Of a stretch of DNA of 64,000 bases, positions 932 to 22,796 are shown one piece after another (the stretch's first letter is position 1; each line of letters begins with the position of its first letter). Location: positions 20,482,083 through 20,546,082 of the forward strand of contig NC_049982.1 of the NCBI RefSeq assembly GCF_000003815.2. Direction: 5' to 3'. Made by a program: the position numbers and the translations under genes. Under the pieces are notes generated by a model that worked only from the letters and a program-made list of their open reading frames with translations, was not told the DNA's origin and made no database searches. This DNA comes from Branchiostoma floridae. Lineage: Eukaryota; Chordata; Leptocardii; Amphioxiformes; Branchiostomatidae.

Positions 932-944
932 CCAAGATGGCGGT
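932..944 (+). promoter_or_regulatory. YY1-like motif overlapping the start codon
   Basis: CCAAGATGGCGGT overlaps the initiation codon and matches the AAGATGGCGGC-type YY1 consensus often found just downstream of animal transcription starts. It also provides a good Kozak context (purine at -3 within CAAG, G at +4). A regulatory role is an inference. Confidence 0.4.
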
Positions 945-3900
945 CAACCTGAGGAAGAACGAGAGGGCGATGTTAGCGGCCTGGAAGGACGTCTGTGATG
1001 ACCATTCCGACACAGATTGGTAAGAAAGCGATGTAGGGATACATAGTCTACATAATGTACTGGGGCTGGGGAACGTTTGGTCACCGTAGAGTCTGTGGAA
1101 AGTGTGGAATTTCTCCTTTGCTCTTTGCACTCTGAGCTACGCATTTCCGTCTTTAGTTCGTTCGAGACAACTAAACGGATGAACATAATTCAATCCTAAC
1201 GGTTTACGAAAAGCGTGGTTACATACACTTAGCTATTAAGGGAAATTATTCACGCAATTAACAGGTTAAGTCCATAATTTCCACACAACTTTGCTGGCGT
1301 TGCGATGCTCATGATTAGGATTTTATCAAGTCATTTCCGCACAGTCCATGGCCAACCCTCCGCGATCCATTCATGCCTCCAGTCGTGTAAACTAGCCACC
1401 CGATACGTGTGCACCACCTCTGCAAACAAGTTCGCTTGTACAGCTATTTTCTTGCCAGTTTATCTGGTCAATCATTTCTGTTTAACGTCCATCCTGTTGC
1501 AGAAAACGGCATGTTTTGAAGTTCACATCTATGCGTGTGTATGTAACGTTATGTGTGTATGAGCTCGCACGTCAAACTTCCGTCCTTCATGTTTTGATCT
1601 TTGTTCCGCTCTTCGCCCTTCCCCCTCGGCCTAGCTACCCTGCACAGGCGGACTTGTTTGTCTCTCTGTATGACCCGATTGAAAAGGAACCAGTTCCCAA
1701 ACGCGTGCCACCCCGCGACATGCCAAAGACTGTCGTAATCGTGATAACGCCAGTACCACACAGTAACGTTCCTGGATGATCCAAAAATAGCCCCCCCAAA
1801 AAGCAGCCCCCCTCCTGTCTGTAACATGACCCCTGCGTGTCTGCCAGCTTTACACACACATACTGCAGTTGCTGTTGTTGTCCTGTGCAACTCTGCCAAG
1901 GGTGATGGAAGCGATGTCTGTCACTCACCTGTCCTTCCTTGTCATGCTTTCAAATTACATAAACCTGTCAAATAGTTACAGATAATTCAATTATATGAGC
2001 TGCATTGGTAATAACAAGGAAGTGAATTGCGAGCTATTTTTACAAAGTCCTGTCTCATGCTTGACTTTGATATGACAGGAAAATTCAGATTTTTTGCCAT
2101 CTCCTGCCAACCTATCCAAATTGGAATTGGTACATTCCTAATCCAGCAAAAATGCCTTTGCCATATTTGCACAAAAACAGTAAAGCCCCAGTGGGATGAC
2201 TTGATGAATCCCTTCATAGTACCACAGTGTTCTGCTGAAGGGTGTGGCTCTGGTAAGGCTCCATCTATGTTGTCTGTATGTTTCCTGAATAGAATTGGTT
2301 CAAAGTACTATAATAACATTGGAATCAAGGTTTAATCCATATGTATTTCAAAATTTGGGTCACATATAACTTATAAGCATAAGTGTGTTGACTCCAAAAT
2401 TCCTGGTGTTGTGGATGTTTACTTAGTATATAATTATAACAGTTTGGCAGCTTTACAAACATGCCATTGTGTTGGTAGATATATACATTTACCCACTACT
2501 TACTTCTAAAGATTATTGTGCCATTGATAGACAAATTCGGAACTTTTATTCGGAACAAATTAGGAATGAATTATCATGACAATATCATTCTTTACTCGGG
2601 TGATTTTATAAAGTATTTCTTGCCATTTTTGCAGGGCGCTGTATGGATATGAGGCAAACACAAATGATCTGAAGCTGGTTTCGACTGGAGGTAAGAGATT
2701 CTCTGACAATGACAATGAAGTTTATTGCATATTCATGCCCCATTGGGGCTAAAAGCAGTAAGTTAGATACAAAGATAATAATTCGACAGCTATGCTAATT
2801 AGCTATGCTATTCTTTTATCTATATTTTACATGATTCTTCTTTCTTGTAGATATGTTGTCAAACTTACAGAGTTTATCTATTACATCCTTTATTTGCTGG
2901 TAACATGAGATACTTGAGCAAGTCTTCCTTTGTTAGATGTGCATCACATTTCTGTTTTACTCCTGTAGAATCTGTAGAAATAGACATCAGGGTGATTTTT
3001 ATGATCCAATCAAATAGGCATTTCAATCAGGCAACAGATCTATTTCAGGGCTACTAGTACTAGTATCTACATGTGCATGGTTTGTCTGCATATTTCTACT
3101 ATCCCATGGCATTCCTGTAGACAAGTGACTCAGTGCCTTTGGGATTCCATCAGTAACAGATGGTCTTCTAATTTATTATTCAATATCTCTGCCCAAATTT
3201 GTCTGGACTAACTGGGTGAAACATGAGCTTCCCCTTATGTTTGTGTCCCAGAATGCAGGTTTGAGTCAGACTTTTTGAAAAATTGGAAAAAAATTTAGGA
3301 TTCTGGACAAAATGTTAGAATGATTATAATATTTGAAATATCTAGACATTCTTTACATGTTTTTTTTCTTCCTTCATTTTTTTATAAGAAGAGAAAAGGT
3401 TGCAGAAATTTATTTCACTTGGTTCTGAAACTTATTAAAAGTTAAAAGTAGGCGAGAGGACAGTGTAAAGAATTGAACTGGGAGGAAAACTTGAATCTGA
3501 CTATGTTCAATGCTATAAACATTTCCATCAACTCTGTTGTCACGTTGTGTTTCCAATTCGGAAATCATTATTTTAAGTCTGTGGACCAATAAACTATATT
3601 CTTGACAGTTGTGCACTAAGTGTGACCCCAGTGCTTATCCTCTATCTGGTAATCGTATTTTGCACCCAGCCTGATGACATGTGAGATAGATCGATAGAGA
3701 CTGATGGTGTACTGCTGATAGCAGAGCTGATGTGTGTTAATGACTTTGTCATTGACAGATGGCGGTCTGGAGGAGCTAGTGGATGACTTCAGCAGTGGCA
3801 AGGTCATGTACGCTTTCTGCAGGGTCAACGACCCCAATACCAATCTGCCAAAGAACGTCCTCATTAATTGGGTAAGCACTCAGGAAAATCTAGATGTCAT

Positions 3901-6900
3901 ATTTTATTGCAACATTGAAATATCATAAACTTGTCATGTAGTCGACTTTCTATGTTAACGTCTCAGTATCACAGTCTCAGATAACCTAACACCTCAACAG
4001 TATTAAAAGAATTGAAAACAGGCATAGGTTCATCTCAACAGAAGTATAATGTGGATGCATGATAATGAGATGAAAGCCTGTCATTTAGCATTACGACTGG
4101 TATTTGTCATCAATGTAAATCATGCCAGTCACTGTTGGTCTGGTTGGGTTGGGTTTGAAGTAGTGTCACATGTAAACTGTGCCAGCCTCTGTTTGCTTAT
4201 TCCTGTTGGGTTAAGGATTCTGCATAGATATGAACTTTATCAGTGCCCTGTTTGTGTTCCAGTCTGGGGAAGCTGTTCCCACTTCCAGGAAAGGAGCCTG
4301 TGCCAACCATGTCAGGGATGTGTCCAACTTCTTCCATGTAAGGAGCACTCAAGATTTATCTTCTGACCTCATTACCTTAAAGGTTTCCAATATGTTGACC
4401 AGATTTTTACCCCTGGCCGCTTATTTCAATATATCACTGTTGAGTGAGGACACTTGATGTAGGAGCTTTGCAGGAAAGTTCATCTGAGTTGGTAAAATAC
4501 ATAACAAAGAATTAAGATGTTCTCCAACTCAAACATTTGTACACACAGAAAGTTTTGACCCATTGATGACATCACAATAGTGAACTGTACAGAATGATTC
4601 ACCCAGAAAGCTGAGGAATGTACAGAGTGGTTGGCTTGGAAAGCTGACGAAGACAGAGTGAATCAGTAAAAAATTCTGGTGATTATAAATTGTTGAGTTG
4701 GAGAAGAATTTCATACTTCTTAGAATATAAGAGCTGACTAAAATTTTACTAATTTTTGATGACTACATGGTGGGAATATGGCTACTTACTTTATGCTTTT
4801 TGGAAGCCCCTTAGAGGTGGATACATTTCTGTACAATTAGATTTGTGTAAAATCAGTGGTACTAATAAACCACCTCCCTGCATTCCCCAGGGAGCACATG
4901 TAACTGTGAATGCCCGTGATGAGGATGATGTTGACCCAGAAGCTATCATGGACAAGGTAGCCAAATCTACATCCTCCAAATACCCAGCGTTTGGCAAGGG
5001 CAGCAGTCAGCAGCAGAGGATTGAGAACCAGGGACCTGTGGTGAGTCATGTGTGCAGTTTGTTTGTGTTAAACACTGAGTATGAGGTGTTAACTTTGAAA
5101 ACCAGAAGTCTGAGAACACAGAACAAAAAATGCTACTGAAAAAGCAACCGTTCAAAGAATAAAGTTTGAAGACATTATATCGTTGTAATTGTTCTTACCT
5201 CCAACTTTTGTATGGTGTTCATAACATTCTGAAAGAGGCTCTCACATATGAATTGCATGAACGTGTATGTAGTTATCTTTGAGTCTAGATATCAATGCTT
5301 GTAAATTATTAAGGTTGAGTAATCGTTGCTAATGATAGCATGTGTAACTATTAGACAAGTTGCTATATTCCTTCTGCCCACAGCCCAAGATTGCACCACG
5401 CCCACCCCCCACATCTAACGCAGAGGTACCGCACTTGGAAAATTTCCAGTACCCCCTGCCCCCCAAAATAATCAATAAATCTGTATGCATTCTATCTTGT
5501 GGAAGCAATGAATCAATAGGCATGAGATACAAAAAAAGTAATAAAACTCTGATCATCCAGTTCAAAACTGCATGGAGTATTCTCTCACACCTTAATTATG
5601 TGATGAAAATTGAGATCACAAAGAATACCAGTATTTTCTAAACCTGAAAATTGTTATGGCTATTTCCACAGAGGAAGGACCTGCATGTATGTGTTATTCA
5701 TCAACCTACAGATATACTGAACCTGATTGTTCAGTGGTAACACATGATTTGGAAACCATGATCATAACTTTTCACCCAACTTCTAAATGTTGCCTAATGA
5801 TTTTTGTTTGTTGTTTCTGGATATCAATGAAGTATCATCACCTTCAAAAGATGTCTTAGTAAAGAATGTCAACCAAACAAGATTCAAATCAAAATCATAC
5901 ACCTGCTTTGCTGGTTTTCAAGTCAGTACAAAAGACTGCAGGATTTCTTATGTTCCAAGAGATTTGATGAAAGTGGGAGTGTATCTCTCCGATCATATTA
6001 ACTTATTAACTTAGAGGTATCCAAACAGAAAGTGAAAGAAACATTGACTTTGTTTAGAAAATCTTGATTTAATTTCTTGTCAACTTGCACAGTTGCAGGC
6101 CTCTTAATGAACACAGTACCAGAGCCCCTTTCTCTCAACATGAATAAAGATGCACAAAGACTGTTAAAAAACTTTGGGAGTATGATAATTGACCAAATAC
6201 TCTCTCTCTCTCAAGCAAGGGTTTAGAATCAGTACAGTGTGCATGTAGGCTGACTTGTGTCTTGTCTCTGTGTAGGGTTCTGTGTACAAGAAGACTCAAG
6301 CAGCATCCGAGATCAAAAGTAGTCAGAAGCAGAGGGAAGATTTCTGGGCCCAGCAGGAGGTGAGATGGACTTGTCAGTACTGTAGGGTTCCAGTGCCATA
6401 GTGTTATACTAGTAGTAGGTGTCATTCTAAAAATAGGATAGAACCATCTTCACCTACTACCTACCTTTAGTCAAGACCTGCCCAAGCTAAGGAACCCTGG
6501 TAAAAGTGGAGGACTACATTTTACTGTGGTATCGAGAACTCAACTGACCCCACAGATTTTAAGCCACAGTAGATTTGCTAACTGCAGAGTTTTATCATAG
6601 GCATCTTTGGGTTAAGAAAAGCAGGAGTCAGTGTTTTTTTCATGTTCAAAAGTAAGGAATGACTCAAAATGATAATTGAATATATTATGCTAATCATTAT
6701 TTCAATATTTACACATCAATACTTTGTTCTACACAGCCAAAATATCTGATAGTTTTGTACTGTAAAATGTTGTATCAGAAAGAGGAGAAAGCACGTGTTG
6801 CAGAGGAGAAGAAGCGGGCGACGGCAGAGCGGGCAAAGCGCGAGAAGGAGCGACTGGATCGAGAGAGAAGGGAAGCAGAGGAGAGGGAGAAGAAAGTCAA

Positions 6901-9900
6901 GGAGAAGGACCTCATGACCAGGCAGCAAAAGTAGGTATCAAGGAGAGGAACAACGTGTGACAGAAAAAGGTATATTTCTGTCAGTCAAGAGAAGATTTAC
7001 CCTAACAGTGAAAGAGACATTAAAGATTGGAACTAATAGAAAAAGAAAAAGGCTGTTTGCACTATTATGATTTGTCTCTGCCATGTTAACTTTGTAGAAT
7101 GTTTTTAATGCAAACTACTGGACTACCATTTATCTTCAGAGTTAGAAGTTTAATTGTTTAGATGTTGAGAAGTGGTAATCTTAAAAGATTTCTGTTGAGT
7201 AGTTTATGACTCTTTATTGCATTGTGTTTGCAGGAAAGAAGAAGCTAACGTTGACAAGAGCATGATGCAGAGGGAGAGAGATGTGGAGAAGGCCCGATGG
7301 GTGAGTAATGGCAATGTTTTTTTCTTGGTAGTCATACTGAGCTACTTTCCAATCATGTGCTATTTCATGATGATAAAAGGTTAGGGCGTGGCTGATCACA
7401 ACCCTACCTCCTACAGAAGCTGAGGATGTTGATGATCTGTAACAAACTTTGTTTATTTTCTCAAGGACTTTCATTTCCAAAATTTTACTGCCACAGACAT
7501 TCAACTCTGAACAGTGAAAATGTGAGGTCGAGGTTTTTACAGCTGCAATATGTCTCCACCACAGGAGACCATACAGAAGGAGGAACAGGAGGAGGACAAG
7601 TCCAGAAGGAAGAGGAGCGAGTCTCTTACCAAGGCTGCGGTAAGTCTGAAAACCAGAGGTGTGATTGGACTGGTCTGGACACTTGTCAGGACTTGTCTCT
7701 AAGGCTTCAGAAATTAGTTTGCATATTTTGCTACCTGGATGTCTATCGTTCATTGAAGGACGTTATAAACATTTAATGAGTATCTTTTCACACTACCAAA
7801 AGTATCTGCCAATGATTCAGCAGTCTGCCTGCTATCCTCCTGATGGCAACAGTGACTTGAGTCATAAAATATGAACTGGGCAGGGAGTACCTAACTTATA
7901 TTTTCAACTGGTACAGTTTAGTTTATGTGTTGATGGAACAGCACAGATTAGCTGACTTGTTGATTACCAAAACAGGTAAGCTGTCGTGTTGATTTTCAGT
8001 ACAGCACTGGTGTGAACAGTAAGTGAACGGTACAGGTACATGGTCAGGTATGACCAAGATAAACAAGCTGACAAAATACCCTTCCATTCAAAACAACAAA
8101 GGAAGTGCCTTAAAGTCAGTTTTAGCTGTAACGTTTTTATACAGTCTCTGTTTTGTTGTTTTCATGCCTTTTTATTTATTCCCCTATGTTGTGTGGTGTT
8201 TATGTTGTACTGTCAATGCTATAGCAGGAAGACAGCAGGTTGCATATCACAGAGCCGCTCTCTCCCAGTGACAAGAAAGGGTATGGGAACTGGACTGCCA
8301 AGCCGTGGACGGGGCAGGCGTCCTCCGGGGGGTTCCGTAGCGTCAGCTTCAAGCCCGCCACGCCCCCCTCCAGCCCGGGGCCAGGGGTGTGTTTAATCTA
8401 TCCGTGTGTGTGTGTGCCTGCTGCACTGTCAGGGTTAATGCATGGGTACTGCTCCCATGGCACAAACTTGCTGTGGCCTGCCACCAACACTGACTCTTGG
8501 CCATGAGGCAACAACAGTTCTTGTTTCTATGGCACAAACTTGATATGGCCTACCAACAATACCAACACGACTCCAGGCCAATCTAGGAATCACTTGTAAT
8601 CACAATGGCCATGGTTTACCAACTAATTCAGTCTCTTCCCCATGGCACAATTTTAGTGTAGCTCACCAACAGTACCGGCATGGCCGAATTGGACTTCATC
8701 ATGGCCATGGCTCACCAGCATGTTCTTATTTCCATCGGCCCAAACTTGCTGTGGTTGCCAACAAGACTGCCATGGTTTCTGCATGCCTTCTGGTGTTCAT
8801 AGCAACTGCATGGCTCCAAGAAGTTGAACTTAAACATGTCCATCATTTGTTTTGCATATATCCACCAATTTTTTATACAGAAACTTTCCTTATATAGAAA
8901 CTTTCCTTATATAAAAACTTTTGCACACATTGGAATATTCACAGCCATTCTATGGGATATCAGCAGATTTACCATAGAACATTTAAAATGGCATTAAAGA
9001 ACACCCACAAGGCACCCACTTACACTTCTCACACCATGAAATATTCATTGTTGCACCATGGGATACCCACATGCTGCACTGTCTGACATGATATCCCTTC
9101 AACTTTTACACCTGATTTCAGACAGACACATAAAACTTTGGCTGCACAGTTTCCATCTACTCTTTTCATGTGCATGTTACTGGGATTAATCTTAAACAAA
9201 ACAGACATATACTAAGTTTTTCCATTGATCTTTGATTCATACATTTCATCATCCTTTGAGTGGATCTCATGATTTTTTTTTTTTTGCCCCCACCTTACCC
9301 TAGGTTAACCCCACAGATAAGCCAACACTCTCCTCCTTTAAACCCACCCTTTCCCCATTGGCTGTTCGAAAAGTTAACTCTCCGCAGTCATTTGCATCGG
9401 GGCCAGGGTCGCCGGGCATATGCGTGCCGCCTAACACACCGGTTGGTTGTGGTTTGGTCCATTACACTTGCCGTAACCAGTTGGAATGTTTTCATACATG
9501 CTTGTGTTCAATGCTGTTAAGATTGAAGTAAGAAGTCCACACAATAAGCTTGCACTCTAAGTTCATATCATTAAAGACTTCATTAGATCTAATAAGCTTG
9601 TCATAGCTTGTACTTGGAATGGAGTGTGTAATACATCCATCATGTATAGTTTGAGATGTACTAAGGTACAGTCAGAGTTCTGTAAGTGTGGCTGAGTTCA
9701 AATTTTGGTGCATTTTGGAAGCATGGAGTTATGAAGTACAGTACAGTGCTGAAGGTATTGTATGTCCTGTTATATAGACGAACATTTCATTGTAGTAAGA
9801 CAGGCTGGTTGTTGGTTTATTTCCTGTGTTGGTGTGTGTGACCAGGAGGATTACGGTCAGGAGTACCAGAACACGGTCCAGCAGCTCATGGCCAGCCGTC

Positions 9901-12900
9901 CTCCGCAGACGAAACATGGCAGAACATTTGTACTGACTGGAACCAAGGAGACCAGAACCACAGAGGGAACGCAGGCAGAGCTGCACAGAGTAGTCACCAC
10001 AGAGACTACTCAGAAGCAAACTGTTGAGACCAAACTTGCACGGAACCCGTACATTGACACTACACCGATCGTTCAGTACAATCAGCCTGCTGATGTCTCT
10101 GCTGACCTGAATAATGATGATGATGATGATGTGGAAGACCCAAACTCAATTACTGAGATGGTGAGAAAACAGTCCAGATTCATCCATGGCAAGAAAAAGC
10201 CGACCCTCCTGGCTAAGCAGGTTGGAATGTTTGAGAAACCAGACGAACCAGAGGTGAATCCGTTTAAAGTTCAGTTTGAAGCAGAATCCAGAAGTTTGCG
10301 GCCTCGAATCATGCCAGGAGACGGTGCACCAAAGGCTGGGTTTCAACCAACTTGTGTGGTCTCCAAACCTGTGTGTCACCCGCCCACCCCCTCCCACATC
10401 ACACCTAACAAACCTGCACACAAGCACCCACAAGCAGCACCCACACACATGAAACCACAGCATCCTCTAGCAGCAGCCAGTAAAACTGCACAGCCTCACC
10501 CTGCACAGCCAGCAGTACAGTCCTACTTACCCCGCAGTACACCACACGGTCATACAGGACCCAAAAACACACCCAGCAAAGTGGGCTACAATCCCACATC
10601 ACAGCCAGATGCAACACAAAGCCAGCCTGTTCCCATGGGAACTTATCTACCAAAGAAAACCCCTGCACCCTCCCAGGCCAAGCCTCAACCCACAGGAAGT
10701 CAGGAGGATAGGAAAGTGGATGGTGTGTTTGAGTCTCACCCATACACAGAAGAAGAGGACGACGGGCCCCCACCCAACACTGCCCTGGTTAGTCAACAGG
10801 TGTAACGCATGTGGCTGGTTTGTGGCCAGGTGTCCAATATCAGGTGCTTGGCATGCACCTGATGTGTTGCAATTGTCTGGCATGTGACTGATTAATAAGG
10901 AAGTCATAGGCATGGTGCTGGTGACTTCCCCAATTTATGATAGAATGTGTATGCTTGTCAGGTTGTCATTATATAATCGGTAATTAGGGCTTGTAGTTTT
11001 GAAAGTTAAGATGCTTGTTACAGGTTCCAGAAGATTATTACTGTAAAGGCAATTATGGCATTGATGCATCGTGATCAGTCTTGCTCCTTGGATAAGGCTT
11101 GTTAACTTTGCCCAGCAAGATCTTGTGATGATTGCTGGACAAAGCTACTCAGTTGTCATATGAAGACTTCTCCAAAGTATCAAAAGGCTTGCCTTACTTT
11201 GGGTTAAACATACGTTTAAGATGAACACAAGAAGATACACAGCTTGATAAGTTGGGAATTGGGGGCTTAATGTAAAGATTGGACATGATATATGCCACTT
11301 TTGTTACTTATTTCAGTTCAGTTTCTAACTTTTCAGAAACCTTTTTTTGTGCAATTTTTCCACCTGTCTCTCCACTGGTACCTGTAGGAGGCAGCAGCAC
11401 TGGTTGCACAGAGAGGTGACTTTAACCCGCGGTCCATGTGGCAGCAGCACAACGTCCCCCCTCCCCTCCCCAGCACCCGTCCTACAGGCCCAGGCAGCCC
11501 TGCCAAGAAGGTGGCCCAGTCTGCACTCTTTTGACTGTCCATTTGTCATTGTGTTCTTTCAAACTGAGACCTTGTTGTGTCTTGCTGTTTTATCACATAT
11601 CCTTCATGATTTGCATCTTGTTTTTTTCTCTATTCCTACTTTGTTGAGCTGAATGAATTTGTATTTTTTTCCTATTTTCCTCCTCTGCTGTGTTGTACTT
11701 CATGTGTTTGTGTTTGTTGCTATTTCTGTGCGTCCTTGTGTGTGGCTGTCCTGTGACAGAAGCCTGTAGGGTACCCCCTCCAACCTGTGCCTGACATGAC
11801 CAGCAGTGTAGAGGCCCCTCCCACAGAGGAGAGTCGTGAGCTGCCCACCAACACAGCTTTGGTGTGTAGCCTCATCAATTTGAACCAGAGTGTGTGAACT
11901 GTACTAAAAGCATTGGATACAGAATTTTTAAAACTATTTGCTCATTTACATGTTTTATCTCTTGACCCAAAAGCTCCTAGGCAAATTCACATTTATTGGA
12001 AGCCCAATATAACACTCTTATTGGTACAATGTACATGTAAACCAGTCTGATCAGCCTTAGTACAGTCAGTAAATTTGGTTACATCATACTCTGTCTTGCT
12101 TCCTTGAGCAGCCTTTATCTCAGCTGTAGCCCATAGCAAATTGGGTGCACAACAAGGATGATGCACCCTGACAATAGGCAATTAAGTGCCTTGAAAAAAA
12201 CTACTACTGTATCAGACTTATTCATAGTTTTATTAAGTTGACAATGGTATTATCCACTTAAGTACAGCTGTCTGTATTGTTTTGTGTTCTCTGTTCTGCT
12301 TCTTACCTTTCTCTCTACTTTTTTTCCATGATTTCCCACAGGAGGCCAAACTCCTTGTTTCTCAGCGAGAGAACAACCCTAAAGACATGTGGAAGGACTT
12401 CCACGTCCCTCCCCCTCCCCCCAACATGCCCCTTCCCCCCAGCCCTGTCAAGGTGGGACAGTCCTACTCTGAGGACAGTGTGTTCGCTAAGTGTGGCATC
12501 TGCCTTGTGTATGTAGTTGTGAGAGGATGAGAGTACTGGGTTTGCTTTGTAGTTTCCATCTCACACTAACTTGTAGTTGTGAAAAGATGTTAGCATGAGG
12601 GCAACATGCTTAATGGTACAGTTTAGTCTCAGTGTAATATTGGCATGATGGCTTGGTTCTACAGTGTGATCTCTGTGAACTTTGTAAGCTGTGACACAAG
12701 TTTGGAAACTGTTAGGCTAGTTAAGTCTGTGATGTACATGTAGTGTATGTGGTTACCTGCTTATTCCTGCCTGTCAATTGGAATGCTGGAAACACATTTG
12801 ACTGTTGCGAATGAGCAGTTAATTTTATTCATATGTGCTTCTCTCATCTTCAGTTGACATTGTCTTTATATCTGTACTGGCATACACTTTCAGTCCACTG

Positions 12901-15900
12901 TATATGACATTCAGGCCACACCAGCAAAGCCTCTTGTTTATTTGACTGTTGAGGGGTACAAGTTGGAAATGAAATGTAATTTTTACCAGATTTTTACCAA
13001 CAGATTTGGAACAAGTCGTTTTGTTAATGTGGCCACATATTTATGTTCCCATCACCTGTACATGTGTGTGTGTGTCGTCTCGTTTGTCATCTATATGTAT
13101 GTGCCACACTACAAACACTGAGTTTCTACTTCTGTCTCTGTGTTGTAGAAACCAAAGACACAAGAACCTAGACTAAAAGTGGTATATGAGCCGGCCATTA
13201 CGGAGCCTCTGGTACAGTCCTGCTCCTGGCACGCTTCCTCTCTGCTCGGAGACACTTCTTTCTCCTCAATCTATCCTCAGGTTCTCTTCCTTTGACTCTG
13301 TCTCCTGTCTATCTCCACTTTCTGGATTGTTGTCTTTTGTTACCACTACTTCCTCTCCTGTCCTGCCCCTTTAAATCCTACTTTTGCACACATCCTGTCC
13401 CTGTGTAACTCAGCCTGTGGCAATCATCCTGTCCTTCCCCCTTCCCTTTGCAGTGACGACTAACCAGATGTTGGAATTTTATGCTGATCTTATTCTGTTC
13501 TGAATGTGATTTTGTTTGTGCAACACTTACATTTTAATGTTACTGTACAGTAACTGTTCAAATCTTGCTGCTACTGGTACAGGACACAACAGTCCCAGCA
13601 GTTCCCCCCATGCAGAATGGTGGTCCAACCCACTCCACAGAACAAGCCACCCTTCCAGACAGGCTAGACACCCCTCCAACCAACACTGCAATGGTCTGGT
13701 CCTTAAAAAACATACACTGTATCTGTGCAGTTTGATATTGCATGTCATCAAATCTGATCATCTCTGTTATTGCACTACTCATGTCACTCAAATCTTTGTA
13801 TGTTCCGAGGTTTGAAAAATCTGATGAAGTTTGCTGAATGCTTCAGAGTCATTTTGTTCCTGTTCCAGCTTGTCAGATGCTTTTAAACAGAAGAATTCTT
13901 TACAAGTGGTTGTTTGCAACATGTAATCTTTTTGGCTGTCTTATTGATGTATTAGCATAGCAAATGCCTTTAAAGTGTTGTATGGTCAAAGGCAAGTTAG
14001 CATTGTCATTCCATCCAAATCTGCATGTACAATGTACATCTTGATGTCTTTGGTCTCATTGTTAGTCAGTGATCACTAACAGGTTACCTCGGTATCATCA
14101 TATAACAAGTTTAGTCATTAACCTGGCTTGGGAAGCTTAGTTACCTCACCAAACAAATGTAGAAGCCATAGGGTCTTGTTGCCTGACGAGTGTGTGTTAC
14201 TGTTGTAGCAGCTGTGGGTACCAATCATGATACATAGCAGGTCTGGTCATCTTCACATAATGCATTCACCAAGTCTGATCATCAACCTGATGATGTAGGC
14301 TTGGTTATCATCACTAACCTGATACAGTAGGCTTGGTTATCACCACTAACCTGATACAGTAGGCTTGGTTATCATCACTAACCTGATACACTAGGCTTGG
14401 TTATCACCACTAACCTGATACAGTAGGCTTGGTTATCATCACTAACCTGATGCTGTAGGCTTGGTTATCATCACTAACTTGATGATGTAGGCTTGGTTAT
14501 CATCACTAACCTGATACGCTAGGCTTGGTTATCACCACTAACCTGATAAAGTAGACTTGGTTATCACCACTAACCTGATACAGTAGGCTTGGTTGTCACT
14601 GCTAACTTGATATAGTAGGCTTGGTTATACAACAATATGTAGTTTTTTAGGAACCTGCAAGGCACAATGAGTATTGCTATGATCCAACTTGCAGTGTACA
14701 GTATCTAGAAGTTGATTTTGCGGAGAAACATTCTTTCCTTACTTTGGCTAAAGACTTTTGAGAAGTTGATAATATTGATGTTCTGGGACTGCCACAGGAG
14801 GCAGCGGCACTGGCAGCACAGAGAGGCAGGAAGAACCCTCGCACCAAGTTTGAACAGAAACCCCAGGAACCCCTGCCTCCCATCCCCAGCAACCCCACTC
14901 CCAATACTGCCATGGTCAGTAGGCAGGTCTGCTGTGGTCTGTAACGTCATTAGTGGCATGAGAACTGTAGAACTGTGGTGGCACCGGTGTGTTGTAGTCT
15001 GTTAAATTATAGTAGATTGCTGTGTAGTTCAGTCAGCATGGCAAGTAGAGCTGTGAAGGTGTAGCTCTGTCTCAGTGTCAGTATCATCAGTTCCTTTAGA
15101 ACTTATTGTGCAGTTGAGCTATTGAGGCATGGTTTGTAGAACTAGAAGTATGATACTCTAGTTCACATGTAGTTCTGTTGCCACAGTAGTATTGTGATCA
15201 TGCAGTTCCATAGTTCTGGCACCATGCTTTGTAGAACTTCAGGTGTGATAGTATAAGCCAGTCAGAATAATTTATTGCAATGCAAATATGGTCTTACACT
15301 ACTGATATTCTTGTCTGTATGTTCTGGTACAAGTAGCTGGTCCCAGTTATGCCAATGTAGTCCAACATGAAAGAATGTTGGCAGGCAGTCGGAAGACATT
15401 TTCTCCTGATTTCTCTGTGTACCTTCCTTCCTGTCCCCTCCTCACAGGAGGCAGCATCCCTGATACACCAGAAGGGAAGCTTCAACCCAGAATTAGCTCG
15501 TCTAAAGTTTGATAACAAGGAAGCATCTCCCAACACAGCTCTGGTTGGTGGTCGTCTTTTGCCAGGAACTTTGTCATAAGTCAAAGCTAACAGTAGCCTA
15601 CACTAGCACGGAAGATCTCATGGCTGACTGATTCAGAATTTAGAGTAACATGTAGACAAGTACAAGTAGTTAATATTGATTTGTGCTATGTTTTGGGATG
15701 CCTGTGCCTGTTTCTGCATGTGAGACATATAACCTCAAGCACTGTGGTAGAATTTTCCAGGTTTGTCTTGGCTGTGCGAATTAACCTTTTTTCCATCTAT
15801 TAGGTCCTATGGTATTGTCTATGCTTACAGGATGTAACCATCTATCATGGGGTTCTGTGGCATTGATTATCGTTGTGAGACTAACACTTTTGCCATTAGA

Positions 15901-18241
15901 CCTATGGGCTATGGCACTATTTTGTAGCTGCAAATTTTGTCTATTGCATGTCATCTTGGTAACTATAGTGAAGATATTGTAACTATGTATTGTATGTAAT
16001 GCTGCTTCCTCTGCATTTGAGAATTGCCCTAAGAATCTTGAAATCTAGTCTAGGTAGAACTGCTTGTGTAATTGATGCACAGTACCCACAAAACACATAG
16101 TGAGTTCCTGAAGCTGTTGGTCTGTATGAATTTTATACTGGGTTTAGTATGATAATTTATACACCAATACTTATATCTGTGTGATAGTTCACACCTTTTA
16201 GCATCTTCACATCAAGGTAGGGGATTGGTCCTAATTGCAATACAAGTGTTTTACAGCAAACATTGACAGTTATTCAGTCTGCCAGGTCTGTCTATACCAT
16301 GAGAATAAGTGGTACAGTCATATTGTAGAAGATTGCAGTTGTAACTGCACTGCTTTTATAACCTGATAACTAACAATAACTCTGCACTACAGAATGTATT
16401 CATTCACTGCAGGGCCTGTTTCTGCAGAAATATGGTCCTTCTGCAACAACCTGACTGTTAGAAAACTAATGCTGCAGGCTTCTGCAGAAACACCTTGTGA
16501 TTGGATAAATGATGGATTGATTGACCATGATTTGCCCTGCAGGAAGCAGCTCAGTTGGTGTCCCAGCGAGGAACGTTTAACCCAAGGGCAGTGTTTGAGC
16601 AGGAGTCTTCCAGTGTTGCACCACCAGCCAGACCGTCGGGAGCACCGCCACAGAAACTCAAGCACAGCTGGGGCCAGTCGGTGAGTTTGGAACTGTCCTC
16701 ATTCTACCTTGATTTCTCTAGTGACATGTTCACATACATTGTTTACCAGATTGTTAGTGCTGTATTTTATTGCAACTGCTGGAAGGGGTACAGTATGCTA
16801 TATACTAGATGGGTTATAACCTTGTCAACTATGGATTATTTGAAACCATCCCCATATAATCTCCAGAAATTCCATGTATAACCTCCAGACTATATACTTT
16901 CTCTTTTGTTACAATTCCATCTTCACTTTTAAGTTTGCACTTGACATCTTGTATATTATTTGCCTTTTGTTTTCTTTTGCTCATTTCATCAGCAACAGGA
17001 AGCAGAACCGGTTCGTTCGTCCCCTCCCGCCCGTCCTGCCGCCCCCGCGCCGGCCCCTCAGCCCAGCCCCGCCCCCGTACCCCAGCCAACCCCCGCACAA
17101 GTGCCTCCGCCACAGCCGCCGGCCCAGCCAGAGCCCGCACCAGAAGTACCACCTGCGGAGCCGGCTCCCCCCCTGCCTACAGGGAAGTCCCCCCTGACAG
17201 AGTCCCTCTCTGTTCTACAGAAGGTTCGCAGGCAGCAGGACTCTGATGAGGAACAGGATGACCAGGACTGGGACGGTAATTTGTCTCACACTTACACGTT
17301 TTAACATTGTAGTTTTCAATAGAACTTATAGTAGTGATGTTCCATAACAACTTAATCTGGGACAAGTACAACTGTCTTAACAAAAATAAGTCTCAAAAGT
17401 TCTGGATGATGCTAATGTAGTGGTTGTATGTTGCAATAGAGGATGAAGGTGTGTCCCAGCCCCCTGTGGTCCAGCCTCCTGTGGTCCAGCCTCCTGCCCA
17501 ACCTGCGGTACACCAGGAGGAACAAGTCATCACACAGACAGGTGGGAGTGCTAGCAGATGACATTTAAGATAATGGTCATATTTACAACTCAGGTCACAT
17601 TTATGCTCTGGATAAAAAGGATGACAAGTCAGACTTGGTCTTTTGCTTGTTTAATTCAGAGGAAACACATGAGGCCCAGTACCAACAGCAGTACCAGCAA
17701 GAGTATCAACAGGAATACCAACAGGAGTACCAACAAGAGTACCAGGAAACTCAGCCTGCTCAGGACTATGTTGATGACCAAAGTCCTGTGGAAACTGGGC
17801 TGAGAGCCAGGGCTTTGTATGACTACCAAGCATGTAAGGACACAAGCAGACATTTTTCTATTTATGTGAGCTTTGTCTTAACAACGTAGGAGCCACTATG
17901 CCTGTACATTGTAGAAATACATGACATGCATGTTTCCAAAACCAGTATATCACAATTGTACGTATGTATACTATACCGGTACCCCATAGATGTAGAGGTA
18001 AATGTATTTATATGATATATACCAGTACACAATAGACAAAGATTATCATACCATATAGAGAAAAGGCTGTTTGGAGTGTTGCTAATGGCTGTTTTCCCCT
18101 ACAGCTGCAGATGATGAGATATCCTTTGACCCTGATGAGATCATCACTGACATTGAGCAGATTGACGAGGGCTGGTGGCGTGGTGTGGGGCCTGATGGGA
18201 CATACGGCTTGTTCCCTGCGAACTATGTGGAGCTCATTTAA
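937..18241 (+). CDS. DBNL: drebrin-like protein (ADF-H ... SH3), 25 coding exons
   Basis: Actin-binding adaptor of the drebrin/Abp1 family, linking F-actin to endocytosis and signalling at the cell cortex. Coding exons read from splice sites: 937-1019, 2635-2690, 3759-3871, 4263-4337, 4891-5040, 6276-6359, 6779-6930, 7234-7300, 7565-7639, 8228-8386, 9304-9441, 9846-10787, 11388-11510, 11760-11861, 12342-12452, 13149-13211, 13583-13693, 14798-14914, 15448-15543, 16543-16680, 16993-17275, 17440-17541, 17660-17833, 18105-18241. An optional exon is 5384-5425. All junctions keep one frame, giving about 1,216 residues against about 430 for vertebrate DBNL and 650-700 for DBN1. The start at 937 opens [12 protein letters not shown], matching the vertebrate MAVNL start. 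Order: ADF-H about 1-140, charged helix about 165-285, very long Pro/Gln-rich linker, SH3 about 1161-1216. The family call is secure; exon 9304-9441 and the boundary of 13149-13211 are the least certain. The gene probably corresponds to the single pre-duplication ancestor of DBN1 and DBNL (inference). Confidence 0.93.
1020..2634 (+). other. intron 1 of the drebrin-like gene
   Basis: Splits codon W28 (TG/G). It contains short open frames around 1305-1930 on both strands, including one on the plus strand up to 1779 with a Pro-rich end. None has splice context or recognisable homology, and I treat them as chance. Confidence 0.8.
2700..2860. repeat. probable interspersed repeat in intron 2
   Basis: Just after the exon 2 donor the sequence reads TGACAATGACAATGAAG, followed by a compact GC-balanced stretch (TTTATTGCATATTCATG...). 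On the minus strand this would be the 3' end of a short retroelement with an ATTGTC-type tail. Boundaries and family are not established. Confidence 0.3.
5384..5425 (+). other. DBNL: candidate 42-bp proline-rich cassette exon of the drebrin-like gene
   Basis: A good acceptor (cttctgcccacag) is followed by 14 codons reading [14 protein letters not shown], then GAG|gtaccg. It is phase 0 on both sides and sits between exons ending and starting at phase 0, so it could be included or skipped without a frame change. The donor is weak. It would add a PxxP-type SH3 ligand between the ADF-H domain and the helix. Confidence 0.45.
6276..7639 (+). other. DBNL: charged helical / coiled-coil exons of the drebrin-like gene
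   Basis: Exons 6276-6359, 6779-6930, 7234-7300 and 7565-7639 encode residues 160-285. They start with [14 protein letters not shown], matching the conserved segment after the ADF-H in vertebrates, then [11 protein letters not shown] Glu/Lys/Arg-rich helix follows ([20 protein letters not shown]-like), ending in [14 protein letters not shown], which carries basic RRKRS-type phosphosite context. Single-helix or coiled-coil behaviour is known for the family and assists F-actin binding. Confidence 0.88.
7214..7753 (-). other. antisense open frame over exons 8-9, not a gene
   Basis: A 179-codon open frame on the minus strand overlaps two drebrin-like exons and their introns. It has no recognisable family and no splice context of its own. 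It is explained by the codon bias of the purine-rich sense exons. Confidence 0.7.
8228..8386 (+). other. DBNL: exon 10 of the drebrin-like gene (start of expanded linker)
   Basis: The only acceptor keeping frame is the AG at 8226-8227. It gives [17 protein letters not shown], then a Gly/Trp-rich part ([13 protein letters not shown]) and [14 protein letters not shown]. It ends CCAGGG|gtgtgt, the first of a run of non-consensus donors. Phase 0 on both sides. Confidence 0.75.
8430..8830. repeat. degenerate tandem repeat in intron 10
   Basis: Diverged copies of a motif resembling ATGGCACAAACTTG...TGGCCTACCAAC recur near 8457, 8529, 8640 and 8733. It looks like an old minisatellite. No coding potential. 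Confidence 0.4.
9304..9441 (+). other. DBNL: exon 11 of the drebrin-like gene, tentative
   Basis: After cttaccctag an open phase-0 frame encodes [18 protein letters not shown], later [18 protein letters not shown], ending at ccg|gttggt. Its SFKPTLSP...SPG part resembles exon 10 ([12 protein letters not shown]), and its end resembles the NTA[LM] ends of later exons. The exact donor is uncertain; gtcgcc at 9412 is an alternative. Confidence 0.5.
9846..10787 (+). other. DBNL: large 942-bp exon 12 of the drebrin-like gene
   Basis: Encodes 314 residues (about 385-698), starting [15 protein letters not shown] and ending [10 protein letters not shown]|gttagt. The middle has an acidic run from a GAT microsatellite ([10 protein letters not shown]), two NP-containing segments ([19 protein letters not shown]) and a Pro/His/Gln/Thr-rich disordered tail with PKNTPSK and PKKTPAPS motifs. 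It is far larger than any exon of the vertebrate linker. Read-through past the donor gives VSQQV and a stop at 10803-10805. Confidence 0.85.
11388..15543 (+). repeat. DBNL: array of duplicated phase-0 exons in the drebrin-like linker
   Basis: Seven exons, B (11388-11510), C (11760-11861), D (12342-12452), E (13149-13211), F (13583-13693), G (14798-14914) and H (15448-15543), all divisible by three. B, D, G and H (and exon I at 16543) open with an EAAxLxxQR-type helix followed by an NPR/NPK/NPE motif: [73 protein letters not shown] and H end in PTNTAL, PTNTAM, PNTAM and PNTAL just before the donor. The unit appears to be [EAA/NPR exon] plus [KP...NTAL exon], fused in G and H and split in E+F. 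The NPR part resembles the single NPREFF/HPREIF motif of vertebrate drebrins. Confidence 0.85.
14270..14632. repeat. 32-bp minisatellite, about 11 copies, in the intron between exons F and G
   Basis: Unit AGGCTTGGTTATCATCACTA plus ACCTGATACAGT, with TTGGTTAT recurring every 32 bp at 14301, 14333, 14365 and onward to 14621. Alternating TCATCAC and TCACCAC variants suggest a higher-order period of two units in part of the array. Confidence 0.93.
16543..16680 (+). other. DBNL: exon I, last repeat-type exon of the drebrin-like linker
   Basis: Opens [20 protein letters not shown], the most vertebrate-like form of the NPR module (compare NPREFFRQ and HPREIFKQ). It continues Pro-rich and ends KLKHSWGQS|gtgagt. 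Unlike the earlier module exons it lacks the NTA[LM] end and has a good donor, so it is the likeliest constitutive copy. Confidence 0.85.
16993..17541 (+). other. DBNL: proline-rich exons J and K of the drebrin-like gene
   Basis: Exon J (16993-17275) is mostly Pro/Ala/Gln, then turns acidic ([18 protein letters not shown]). Its acceptor is a tandem catCAGcaaCAG, so two in-frame starts differing by QQ are possible. Exon K (17440-17541) carries a repeated VVQPP motif. Such Pro-rich linkers bind SH3 and EVH1 domains in related adaptors. Position matches the Pro-rich region before SH3 in vertebrate DBNL. Confidence 0.85.
17660..17833 (+). other. DBNL: exon L with YQQE repeat and SH3 start
   Basis: Contains a four-residue YQQE/YQQQ repeat (about 17684-17746), six to seven copies, then [23 protein letters not shown], which starts the SH3 domain. 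Ends phase 1 at gtaagg. The repeat is a 12-bp coding minisatellite and may vary in length between alleles. Repeated tyrosines could be kinase targets, as tyrosines in vertebrate DBNL are (inference). Confidence 0.88.
18105..18241 (+). other. DBNL: terminal exon M, SH3 domain and stop codon
   Basis: Encodes the rest of the SH3: [20 protein letters not shown], then [20 protein letters not shown] and I-stop. The ALYDY (previous exon), GWW and PANYVEL motifs needed for PxxP-ligand binding are all present. The stop is TAA at 18239-18241. In vertebrate DBNL this domain binds dynamin and other endocytic partners. Confidence 0.93.
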
Positions 18242-20646: not shown

Positions 20647-22600
20647 CTACAAATGCACATTTACAACATCCCCAGTTTGAAAAGTTTTCTGACACAAGGT
20701 ACAGATCAGCACCCTGTCCTGTTGCACCTGCAGCAGGCACCTGCGGCACATCAGGTGCAGACATGGCAGCTGCAAAAGGTTGCAGGAGTTTTGAGCAGCG
20801 GGTGAGCTGCATTTACAGCAGCTGCTCCCAGTAGCCCCAGCTGTCACTGTCATGTTGCCGTGGATTCCTGCATTGGATATGTGAAGACAGTAGACATAAT
20901 TTCAATACAAATCATCAGCTGCAGCACAAAACTACTCTGCATTTACTGCAATTCAAAAAAGATAGTGAGCCAAGTATAAAATGCCTATAATAACAGGTAA
21001 AAAACAGAGCTGACAGGCACACATGCAGGCACAAAGACTCAGCTGTAAACCCACCTTTGTTGATATGCAGTTTGTTGTTATCTTCATTCACTAAAGATGA
21101 GGCTGCTACTTGACCTAGAGTTGGTTCTTTTCTCCTCCTTTTGAATGCAGGAATGGAACCTAATGTTCTTGCTAAGGCAGCATCCAGGCTTTGACTCAAG
21201 GCCTCCTCATGTGACCCACTGTATGGCTTACACTTGGTCTGAATGTCCTGAGTTACCTTGGGTCTTTTCCTACATGGTCCTCTCAAATCACTAGTTTCAG
21301 CACATGCATGAACATTGGAATATCTTTTAGCCTTGTTTTCTGATTGTCCAGAAGAGTCCTTTATGCACTGAGAAGTATCAAGTTCTGACACTTTTGGTGC
21401 ATGGTTTGATGTAGAGGCAGAGTTTGAGATGTTGATATGACATTTTGAAACTTGGGCAGATGAGAGTACAGCATTGCTTGTTGATGGAGCCTGTTGGATA
21501 TGGGCAGTTTCTGTGTGTGAAGTATTCTGATTGGCTGTTGCTAAAGTGTGTGCTGTTGATCTTGTACGTCGTCCCACTGTGCGGCCAACATTACCAAGAT
21601 GCTTTCCCTCTTGCAGGAGAAACTTATCAATTCGAACTTTCAGTGCAGTATTTGGTATGGGATGTGAGCTTCGTGTGTACGGAACCCCTGTAAAAGGGTC
21701 ACTGGGTGGACGGCCCCAAACCTCCTCTGATTGGCTGTGCTTGTCTAATGTTGATTGGTCAACAGAATGACCAGATGGAAGCATCATGGGTAGGGCCATC
21801 AGCTCGTGGGTGATCTCATCCAGGTACTCCAGGGGAATTCCAGGACTTTCCTCAGATGGACCTTTCAGCAAAGTTCTTGCTGTATCTTGGACTTTTTCCT
21901 CCTTAGAAGGAGGAGACTGGACAGAAATTGTTGTGGACTCATTAGGAGGAGATTTCAGGCTTTGAGAAATTTGGTAGACAAGACTGATAACTTCCTTGTC
22001 ACAAGTTGCTGATGGTTGTCCATAAACACGGACGGACCTCAGCACAGGGATGGAAGCGTTCTGTGTGCGCACAATTCTCACCATCAGGTGGCTTACTCTA
22101 CTCAATGCTGGTGATTTCTGCCACAAGTTGGATATGTAAGCATTCCCATCAAGAGTTCCTGGTGTGAAGTCTTTTCCCACAAATGGACGTCTTGGACTAT
22201 ACCTGTTGTTCTTAAAGCAAAGGAATTTCCTTTCCTCTAGGAAAGCTTTTCCAACTAGATTGAATGTTTCAGGGTTGAATGTACTGTTTAGGGAGGCACA
22301 TGTGCTACCAGGTTTACTGTCTACAAGCCAGTTTTCTATACTTGTAGCTGAGTGTGTTAAAATCTGAAGCCCTAATGAAACATTTGACCCAACACATGGA
22401 TCAATGTCTATCCTGTGAATGTGGATGTGGAAGGGGAAACTCAGGATTACATTGACAGGAGGCTTGATGAAATATTCAGCTCGGAAACCCCTGGCACGGA
22501 CTCGTAGATCAGCTGACACCAGGTTTGTGATGTCGTACCCATCAGCACTCACTTTGTCACAATGGATTCTGGGATGCAAAGCAGGATGGCTGAGATCCAT
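20647..22600 (-). CDS. UBOX5: U-box domain-containing protein 5 (RNF37), E3 ubiquitin ligase
   Basis: Two coding exons, 22600-21055 and 20867-20647 (phase-1 junction AAAG|gtggg ... ccaatgcag|GA), give 588 residues against about 540 in human. The start at 22600 (CCCATGG) gives MDLSHPALHPRIHC, aligning with the vertebrate N-terminus; the frame is open further upstream but the length fits this ATG. The N-terminal domain contains GFRAEYFIKPPVNVILSFPF. The U-box is at about 255-332, with EYLDEITHELMALPMMLPSG, DQSTLDKH and PPSDPFTGVPY. A Ser-rich linker includes LSQSLDAALARTLGSIPAF, also conserved. The C-terminus is a degenerate RING (CKC, LPCLHLMCRRC, CTLCQ) ending VNVHL, like vertebrate VLRVHF. 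U-box proteins recruit E2-ubiquitin without zinc; RNF37 is reported as nuclear with UBE2 and VCP partners. Complete, no breaks. Confidence 0.95.
20868..21054 (-). other. single coding-region intron of UBOX5
   Basis: 187 bp, gtgggt ... aatgcag on the minus strand. It inserts between the linker (INK) and the C-terminal degenerate RING. The short size agrees with the compact two-exon structure. Confidence 0.85.
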
Positions 22601-22655
22601 GGGAAGCTTGTTTGCTGTGGTGCAGTACCCGAATCTCAAGCCACAAATCTGGGAC
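22601..22655 (-). other. 5' UTR part of UBOX5 exon 2
   Basis: On the minus strand an acceptor (tatccattccag|gtcccag) starts the exon at 22655, leaving about 55 nt of leader before the ATG at 22600. The leader is open in the same frame, so an N-terminal extension is possible only if the upstream exon supplies a start. Confidence 0.65.
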
Positions 22656-22796
22656 CTGGAATGGATATAGTCATGTTAAAGTTGCAGAAAAATAATGTTA
22701 CCTTTTGAATCAGCCTTGGGAGCTTTTTTTTATAAAGTAAGAATTTGATGATTCAAAACAAAGAGTGGTGAATTATGATGTCACTGTGTGGTAGGA

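Follow-up and report, generated by a model that had tools for sequence, protein, structure and literature searches.

Five intron-split copies of a drebrin-type motif in a drebrin-like gene of Branchiostoma floridae

A drebrin-like gene with a run of phase-0 exons

The window analysed here is a 64,000-nt stretch of the Branchiostoma floridae genome (NC_049982.1, 20,482,083 to 20,546,082, forward strand), and all coordinates given below are positions within it. Its plus strand carries a drebrin-like gene (937-18241), for which 25 exons and a protein of 1224 aa were modelled from splice sites and reading frame, read by eye without a gene finder. The predicted protein comprises, in this order, an N-terminal ADF-H head (residues 13-131, Pfam PF00241, E 1.8e-29), a charged helix-like region, the motif array described below, and a C-terminal SH3 tail (residues 1173-1222, PF14604, E 3e-13; PF00018, E 8.8e-13). 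The nearest PDB match of the head is the drebrin-like ADF-H domain 1x67 (E 1.3e-50), ahead of drebrin itself (5y1z, E 1.7e-35), and the charged region (residues 168-295) matches, by sequence only, drebrin 9tg8 in its helical part (E 9.2e-7). These matches confirm the drebrin-like gene that had been proposed from an inspection of the DNA letters (hereafter the sequence-only reading). The features of the drebrin/Abp1 family are present, namely the N-terminal ADF-H domain, the C-terminal SH3 domain of the DBNL/Abp1 branch, a charged single-helix region after the ADF-H domain and, following this helix, an EAAxxxxQR..NPRxxF stretch, which occurs here in five copies.

The nearest ADF-H match and the C-terminal SH3 domain are shared with DBNL (mAbp1, HIP-55), but the protein differs from DBNL by the about 870 residues between exon 9 and the SH3 domain, which include the five motif copies; vertebrate DBNL probably has a single HPREIF-type site. 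PPxxF is the Homer-binding motif pattern of vertebrate drebrin (DBN1). Unlike vertebrate drebrin, the drebrin-like protein ends in an SH3 domain and has no such site, and neither PPxxF nor LPxxF of the Homer type is found in the 1224-aa model.

The exons of the model are listed below. Exon letters are labels of this analysis, with B, D, G, H, and I chosen to fit the sequence-only reading; where two scores are given, the first is the score of the held-out motif copy and the second that of the best non-module placement in the same scan.

937-7639, plus strand: exons 1-9, including the 42-nt exon 5b (5384-5425); ADF-H head and charged helix-like region
8228-8386, plus strand: exon A, 159 nt, phase 0-0, without a module copy (open frame, AG/GT sites)
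9304-9423, plus strand: candidate exon A2, phase 0-0, tentative (donor PWM score -8.8)
9846-10787, plus strand: long exon of 942 nt, ending in NTAL, the first half of copy 1 (splice sites and frame)
11388-11510, plus strand: exon B, second half of copy 1 (scores 53.5 and 17.2)
11760-11861, plus strand: exon C, spacer, ending in NTAL, the first half of copy 2 (splice sites and frame)
12342-12452, plus strand: exon D, second half of copy 2, one residue shorter (scores 32.0 and 19.5)
13149-13211, plus strand: candidate exon E, 63 nt, phase 0-0, tentative (poor donor)
13583-13693, plus strand: exon F, spacer, ending in NTAM, the first half of copy 3 (splice sites and frame)
14798-14914, plus strand: exon G, second half of copy 3 and first half of copy 4 (NTAM; scores 42.7 and 17.8)
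15448-15543, plus strand: exon H, second half of copy 4 and first half of copy 5 (NTAL; scores 36.2 and 21.2; weakest drebrin match)
16543-16680, plus strand: exon I, second half of copy 5, strong donor (scores 49.9 and 16.2)
16993-18241, plus strand: exons J-M; Pro-rich, acidic, QEY-rich tail, SH3 domain, and stop (splice sites and frame, Pfam)

The array consists of 11 consecutive candidate exons (8228-16680; A, A2, the 942-nt exon, B, C, D, E, F, G, H, and I), all of them in phase 0 as the sequence-only reading had stated, although the candidates A2 and E, which have no motif copy and poor donors, may be wrong calls. Phase 0 is found in all 12 introns between exons 9 and J, compared to six of the 12 elsewhere in the gene (those after exons 3, 4, 5, 5b, 6, and 8; Fisher p 0.014), although the test is to some extent circular, given that keeping the frame was one of the reasons for accepting A, A2, and E.

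Further features of the window include a neighbouring gene on the minus strand (20915-22675), whose 586-aa open frame matches DUF5918 (E 3e-59) and a U-box (E 5.5e-18) and is U-box-ligase-like; the one NTAL in this frame is probably due to chance. A perfect 164-bp tandem repeat of 1.8 copies at the window start (2-303) is either very recent or an assembly duplicate, and a coding 12-bp repeat (5.6 copies, 17678-17744) forms the QQEY run in exon L upstream of the SH3 domain. A scan of viral contigs with exon 5 found no relatives.

One motif cut by an intron, in five copies

Exons B, D, G, H, and I open with EAA or EAK, with QR or QK and then NP further on, and in all five cases the exon directly before them (the 942-nt exon, C, F, G, and H, respectively) ends in NTA[LM]. 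Together these parts form one motif unit, NTA[LM]EAAxLxxQRGxFNPR, in which N, T, A, E, A, L, Q, N, and P are invariant among the five copies, and in every copy a phase-0 intron interrupts this unit at the identical point, between [LM] and E. The sequence-only reading had regarded the NTA[LM] ends as the mark of a second module. This part of it was not upheld: the NTA[LM] ends directly precede an EA- start in five of five copies and represent the upstream half of the same motif. Two separate module families were accordingly rejected in favour of a single motif whose halves, NTA[LM] and EA...NP, are split by a phase-0 intron. Compared over their full lengths, exons C and F show no significant similarity (p 0.152, whole-exon shuffles).

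The relatedness of the five module exons is well founded. In a held-out scan, a profile of four copies was used to score the fifth in six frames and with two gap choices, corresponding to 255,788 placements per scan, and each held-out copy scored above every non-module place, defined as the best placement at least 60 bases from every copy (scores in the list above). The amino acid identity of the motif among the five copies is 43-73%. When the exons were aligned to each other, a check that the sequence-only reading had itself suggested, nine of the ten pairs formed by the five exons reached p <= 0.002 against whole-exon shuffles, the remaining pair being D-H (p 0.098). Besides these five exons, only A2-B (0.016) and C-H (0.03) have p < 0.05 among the lowest 22 of 55 pairs, which is as many as chance gives over 55 pairs.

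Further copies were not detected in a six-frame profile scan of the 64-kb window, in which only the five known copies exceed shuffled windows (best other start about 17 vs. 17.7-21.2 in five shuffled windows, off-register placements of the copies excluded). A Pfam scan of the five motif peptides (copy I with two incorrect leading letters) yielded no meaningful family, with one of the five matching at E 0.2. AlphaFold modelled exon I together with its four sister exons as two short helices, at low confidence (pLDDT 68.5, pTM 0.21).

Over the ten copy pairs, mean pS is 0.71 and mean pN 0.30, and no pair of different introns of the gene is similar at E <= 0.01 (BLASTN). Since synonymous sites are more diverged than the amino acids and the introns are dissimilar, the copies appear to be mostly old and kept by selection. 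The B-G pair has a pS of only 0.38, compared to 0.60-0.87 in the other nine pairs, so that the copies are not all equally old, and B and G may have split later than the others. A recent duplication or an assembly artefact was also considered for the whole array and is excluded by the dissimilar introns and by the pS values of these nine pairs.

The place of the intron within the motif has consequences for the proposal that any exon of the array could be skipped in frame. Skipping any one of the symmetric phase-0 exons would keep the frame, but not always the motif context. It is preserved only where exon 9 or an NTA[LM] end is joined to an EA- start, which makes B+C, D+E+F, G, and H the natural units, with lengths, and thus motif spacings, of 75, 95, 39, and 32 aa, respectively.

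Relation to the F-actin-binding region of drebrin

When a profile of the five copies, with its five alignment rows checked against the DNA, was compared to 177,635 distinct PDB sequences (hmmsearch), drebrin 9tg8 was the best match (E 0.0045), followed by methylmalonyl-CoA mutase (E 0.46). The 221-residue drebrin chain is matched once and only by the EA...NP half (profile positions 7-27), the matched stretch containing no counterpart of the NTA[LM] half. This stretch starts at human drebrin residue 278 (human letters as printed in PMC12513958). Four of the five copies outscore all 2000 shuffles of human drebrin 233-317, and for copy H, which has NPELA instead of NPR, 48 of the 2000 shuffles score as high or higher. 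The relation of the five exons to the NPREFF stretch of drebrin, as put forward in the sequence-only reading, is borne out by the profile match and by these four copies, and the motif is homologous to drebrin 278-298. With the whole array as the query (phmmer), there were no PDB matches at E <= 10, and drebrin was reached only by the five-copy profile. In vertebrate drebrin 233-317, as in the protein described here, the EAAxxxxQR..NPRxxF stretch lies after the charged helix that follows the ADF-H domain; the two differ in that the 9tg8 chain and human 233-317 have one copy, in contrast to five with unconserved spacers in the drebrin-like protein.

In PMC12513958, the primary F-actin-binding site of drebrin is given as residues 233-300 or 233-317 with a KD of 6.2-8.2 uM, citing Grintsevich 2010, and published localisations of the site are described as not concurring. 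The same paper reports a drebrin construct that is helical at its start and then mostly disordered, apart from a minor region of lower mobility near residue 60; a predictor gave an ordered segment of somewhat greater length, construct residues 50-70. Residue labels in a figure legend of PMC12513958, A53 to R58, are consistent with a numbering that counts a 4-residue tag, so that construct residues 50-70 correspond, by our numbering, to E278-E298. Judged by sequence, this is the piece that is multiplied in the drebrin-like gene. As the actin-binding region of drebrin spans 68-85 residues, of which only about 20 match, the motif may not suffice alone. Other sources describe two actin-binding regions of drebrin, coiled-coil and helical (PMC12627054), and a charged single helix (PMC12203971).

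These observations also bear on the description of the array as a linker. It is correct in terms of position, as the array lies between the head and the SH3 domain, but "linker" is too weak a term because the matching drebrin stretch falls inside the F-actin-binding region named in PMC12513958. The array is thus probably a multiplied filament-binding motif rather than a mere linker. A hypothetical join of exon 9 to exon I, which removes 648 residues, aligns with drebrin 9tg8 over nearly its whole length, including helix and motif (E 4.4e-13), and the tail of exon 9 scores 71 against drebrin 233-317 when joined to exon I, compared to 36 when joined to exon A.

Other known actin-binding motifs are at most comparable in their mode of working. 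The SFM, VxxLxxxFE, is a short sequence that adopts a helical form on F-actin, with affinities of 2-12 uM, according to PMC13364712, in whose main text the words "drebrin" and "DBN" are absent. As a short F-actin motif it is similar to the one described here in working only, since the SFM pattern [VIL]xx[LIM]xxx[FYW][ED] has no match in the whole predicted protein. A WH2-like pattern likewise had no match in the protein, and Pfam gave no WH2 match at E <= 1. Nebulin contains tandem actin-binding repeats, and exons G-H-I may resemble it in having filament-following repeats about 30-40 residues apart; here, however, only two of the four spacings are in this range, and no sequence relation is claimed.

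Splice sites and the possible role of the array

Variation along the gene is also found in the donor sites, which are weaker in the array than elsewhere. The predicted U1 pairing has a median of -4.7 kcal/mol for the 11 array donors and -8.9 kcal/mol for the 13 donors outside the array (p 0.006), and the difference persists without A2, E, and 5b (9 vs. 12 donors, p 0.02). A donor PWM gives p 0.003 with or without these three exons, and a pyrimidine at donor position +3 occurs in 4 of 11 donors in the array vs. none of 13 outside. Counts of consensus matches barely differ (p 0.05; strict 0.064). Individual donors depart from this trend, those of D and I being strong and, outside the array, those of 4, 5b, 7, J, and L being weak by U1 pairing. 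Acceptors do not differ between the array and the rest of the gene (p 0.81). Weak donors in the array suit cassette splicing or regulated inclusion, and their weakness may result partly from the coding constraint of NTA[LM].

Several additional elements near the splice sites were observed. A second in-frame GT lies 12 nt downstream of the donors of the 942-nt exon (10788-10799) and of exon G (14915-14926), the use of which would insert VSQQ or VSRQ between NTA[LM] and EA. Compared by eye, these two 12-nt extensions are identical at 8 of 12 bases and could thus reflect a related alternative donor. A minisatellite in the intron preceding exon G (14284-14628, 32-bp unit, 10.8 copies) has nine occurrences of the branch-point-like CACTAAC and 12 of TAG, and might therefore act as a splice-site decoy or regulator. 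Past the donor of exon B, a stop follows after seven codons (11511-11534, VAQSALF*), and retention or polyadenylation at this point would thus give a short protein without the SH3 domain.

We propose that a short motif, which in drebrin's filament-binding region follows a charged helix, was multiplied to five by mostly old tandem duplication of exon units whose borders lie in introns at one fixed point of the motif, NTA[LM]|EA. Each unit consists of an EA...NP half, an unconserved and mostly Pro-rich spacer, and an NTA[LM] half, and because it runs from the one half to the other, the removal of a whole unit would keep the frame and restore a complete motif where the flanking exons meet. With all units included, the protein would provide five low-affinity contacts to the actin filament, spaced at 32-95 residues and situated between the ADF-H head and the SH3 tail, possibly resulting in avidity or bundling, and the weak donor sites may let the cell choose the number of motif units that are included. 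We consider the chances of this explanation, with a five-copy filament-binding motif derived from tandem exon-unit duplication, five weak contacts, and a copy number set through weak donors, to be about even. A splicing-set actin ruler, in which whole EA...NTA[LM] units are skipped to yield proteins with one to five drebrin-type motifs that range from weak to strong filament binders or bundlers, is a tentative and somewhat doubtful extension; as every break is at the same motif point, each skip would rebuild an intact motif. The vertebrate drebrin region examined shows no such arrangement.

All array exons may instead be constitutive, giving a fixed long multivalent protein in which the phase-0 symmetry is a by-product of exon duplication and not a sign of splicing choice. 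Intron-bounded duplication of phase-0 units would be expected to yield symmetric exons without selection for skipping, and both the acceptors, which are as good in the array as elsewhere, and the six phase-0 introns outside it are in line with this; the weaker donors in the array and the drebrin-like arrangement obtained by removing the units in one step speak against it. This remains a possibility to be taken seriously, albeit not the favoured one. It is unlikely, by comparison with the proposed binding to filaments, that the motif binds another partner, such as an adaptor or a cytoskeletal regulator, and that the array tunes that contact instead of the one to F-actin: published reports do place the actin-binding domain of drebrin at differing positions, but the motif falls inside both of the primary F-actin sites, 233-300 and 233-317, named in PMC12513958.

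Multiplication of Pro-rich ligands for SH3 domains, either its own or those of partners, with the EA...NP stretch as a mere spacer, would account for the PxxP sites in exons B, C, D, F, G, and I. It is nevertheless quite improbable, as the conserved part is the motif and not the spacer, exon H has no PxxP, and the drebrin match falls on the motif. Finally, chance similarity or misread introns, and hence no true exon array, can be dismissed almost entirely, since despite the weak exons A2 and E and a model made by eye, the held-out scores, an intron at the same place in five of five copies, and drebrin as the best PDB match all point to a true array.

The drebrin-like family is known, but no account of a motif multiplied five-fold and interrupted by an intron at one constant position, of repeated drebrin motifs, or of lancelet drebrin was found among the papers listed from the open-licence PMC literature, judged by titles and the starts of abstracts. 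A relative in which one piece of about 20 residues has been copied five times and kept, while the introns and most synonymous sites diverged, constitutes evidence from nature that this piece functions as a unit of its own. This bears on the F-actin-binding site of drebrin, whose location is disputed in print according to PMC12513958, and the five copies are ready-made variants for binding tests. As the exons can be omitted in frame, the gene might make proteins with differing numbers of actin-gripping sites, and if units are indeed skipped in vivo, it would offer a straightforward example of cytoskeletal valency being tuned by splicing. Such motif multiplication may be more common among invertebrates than is visible from one genome.
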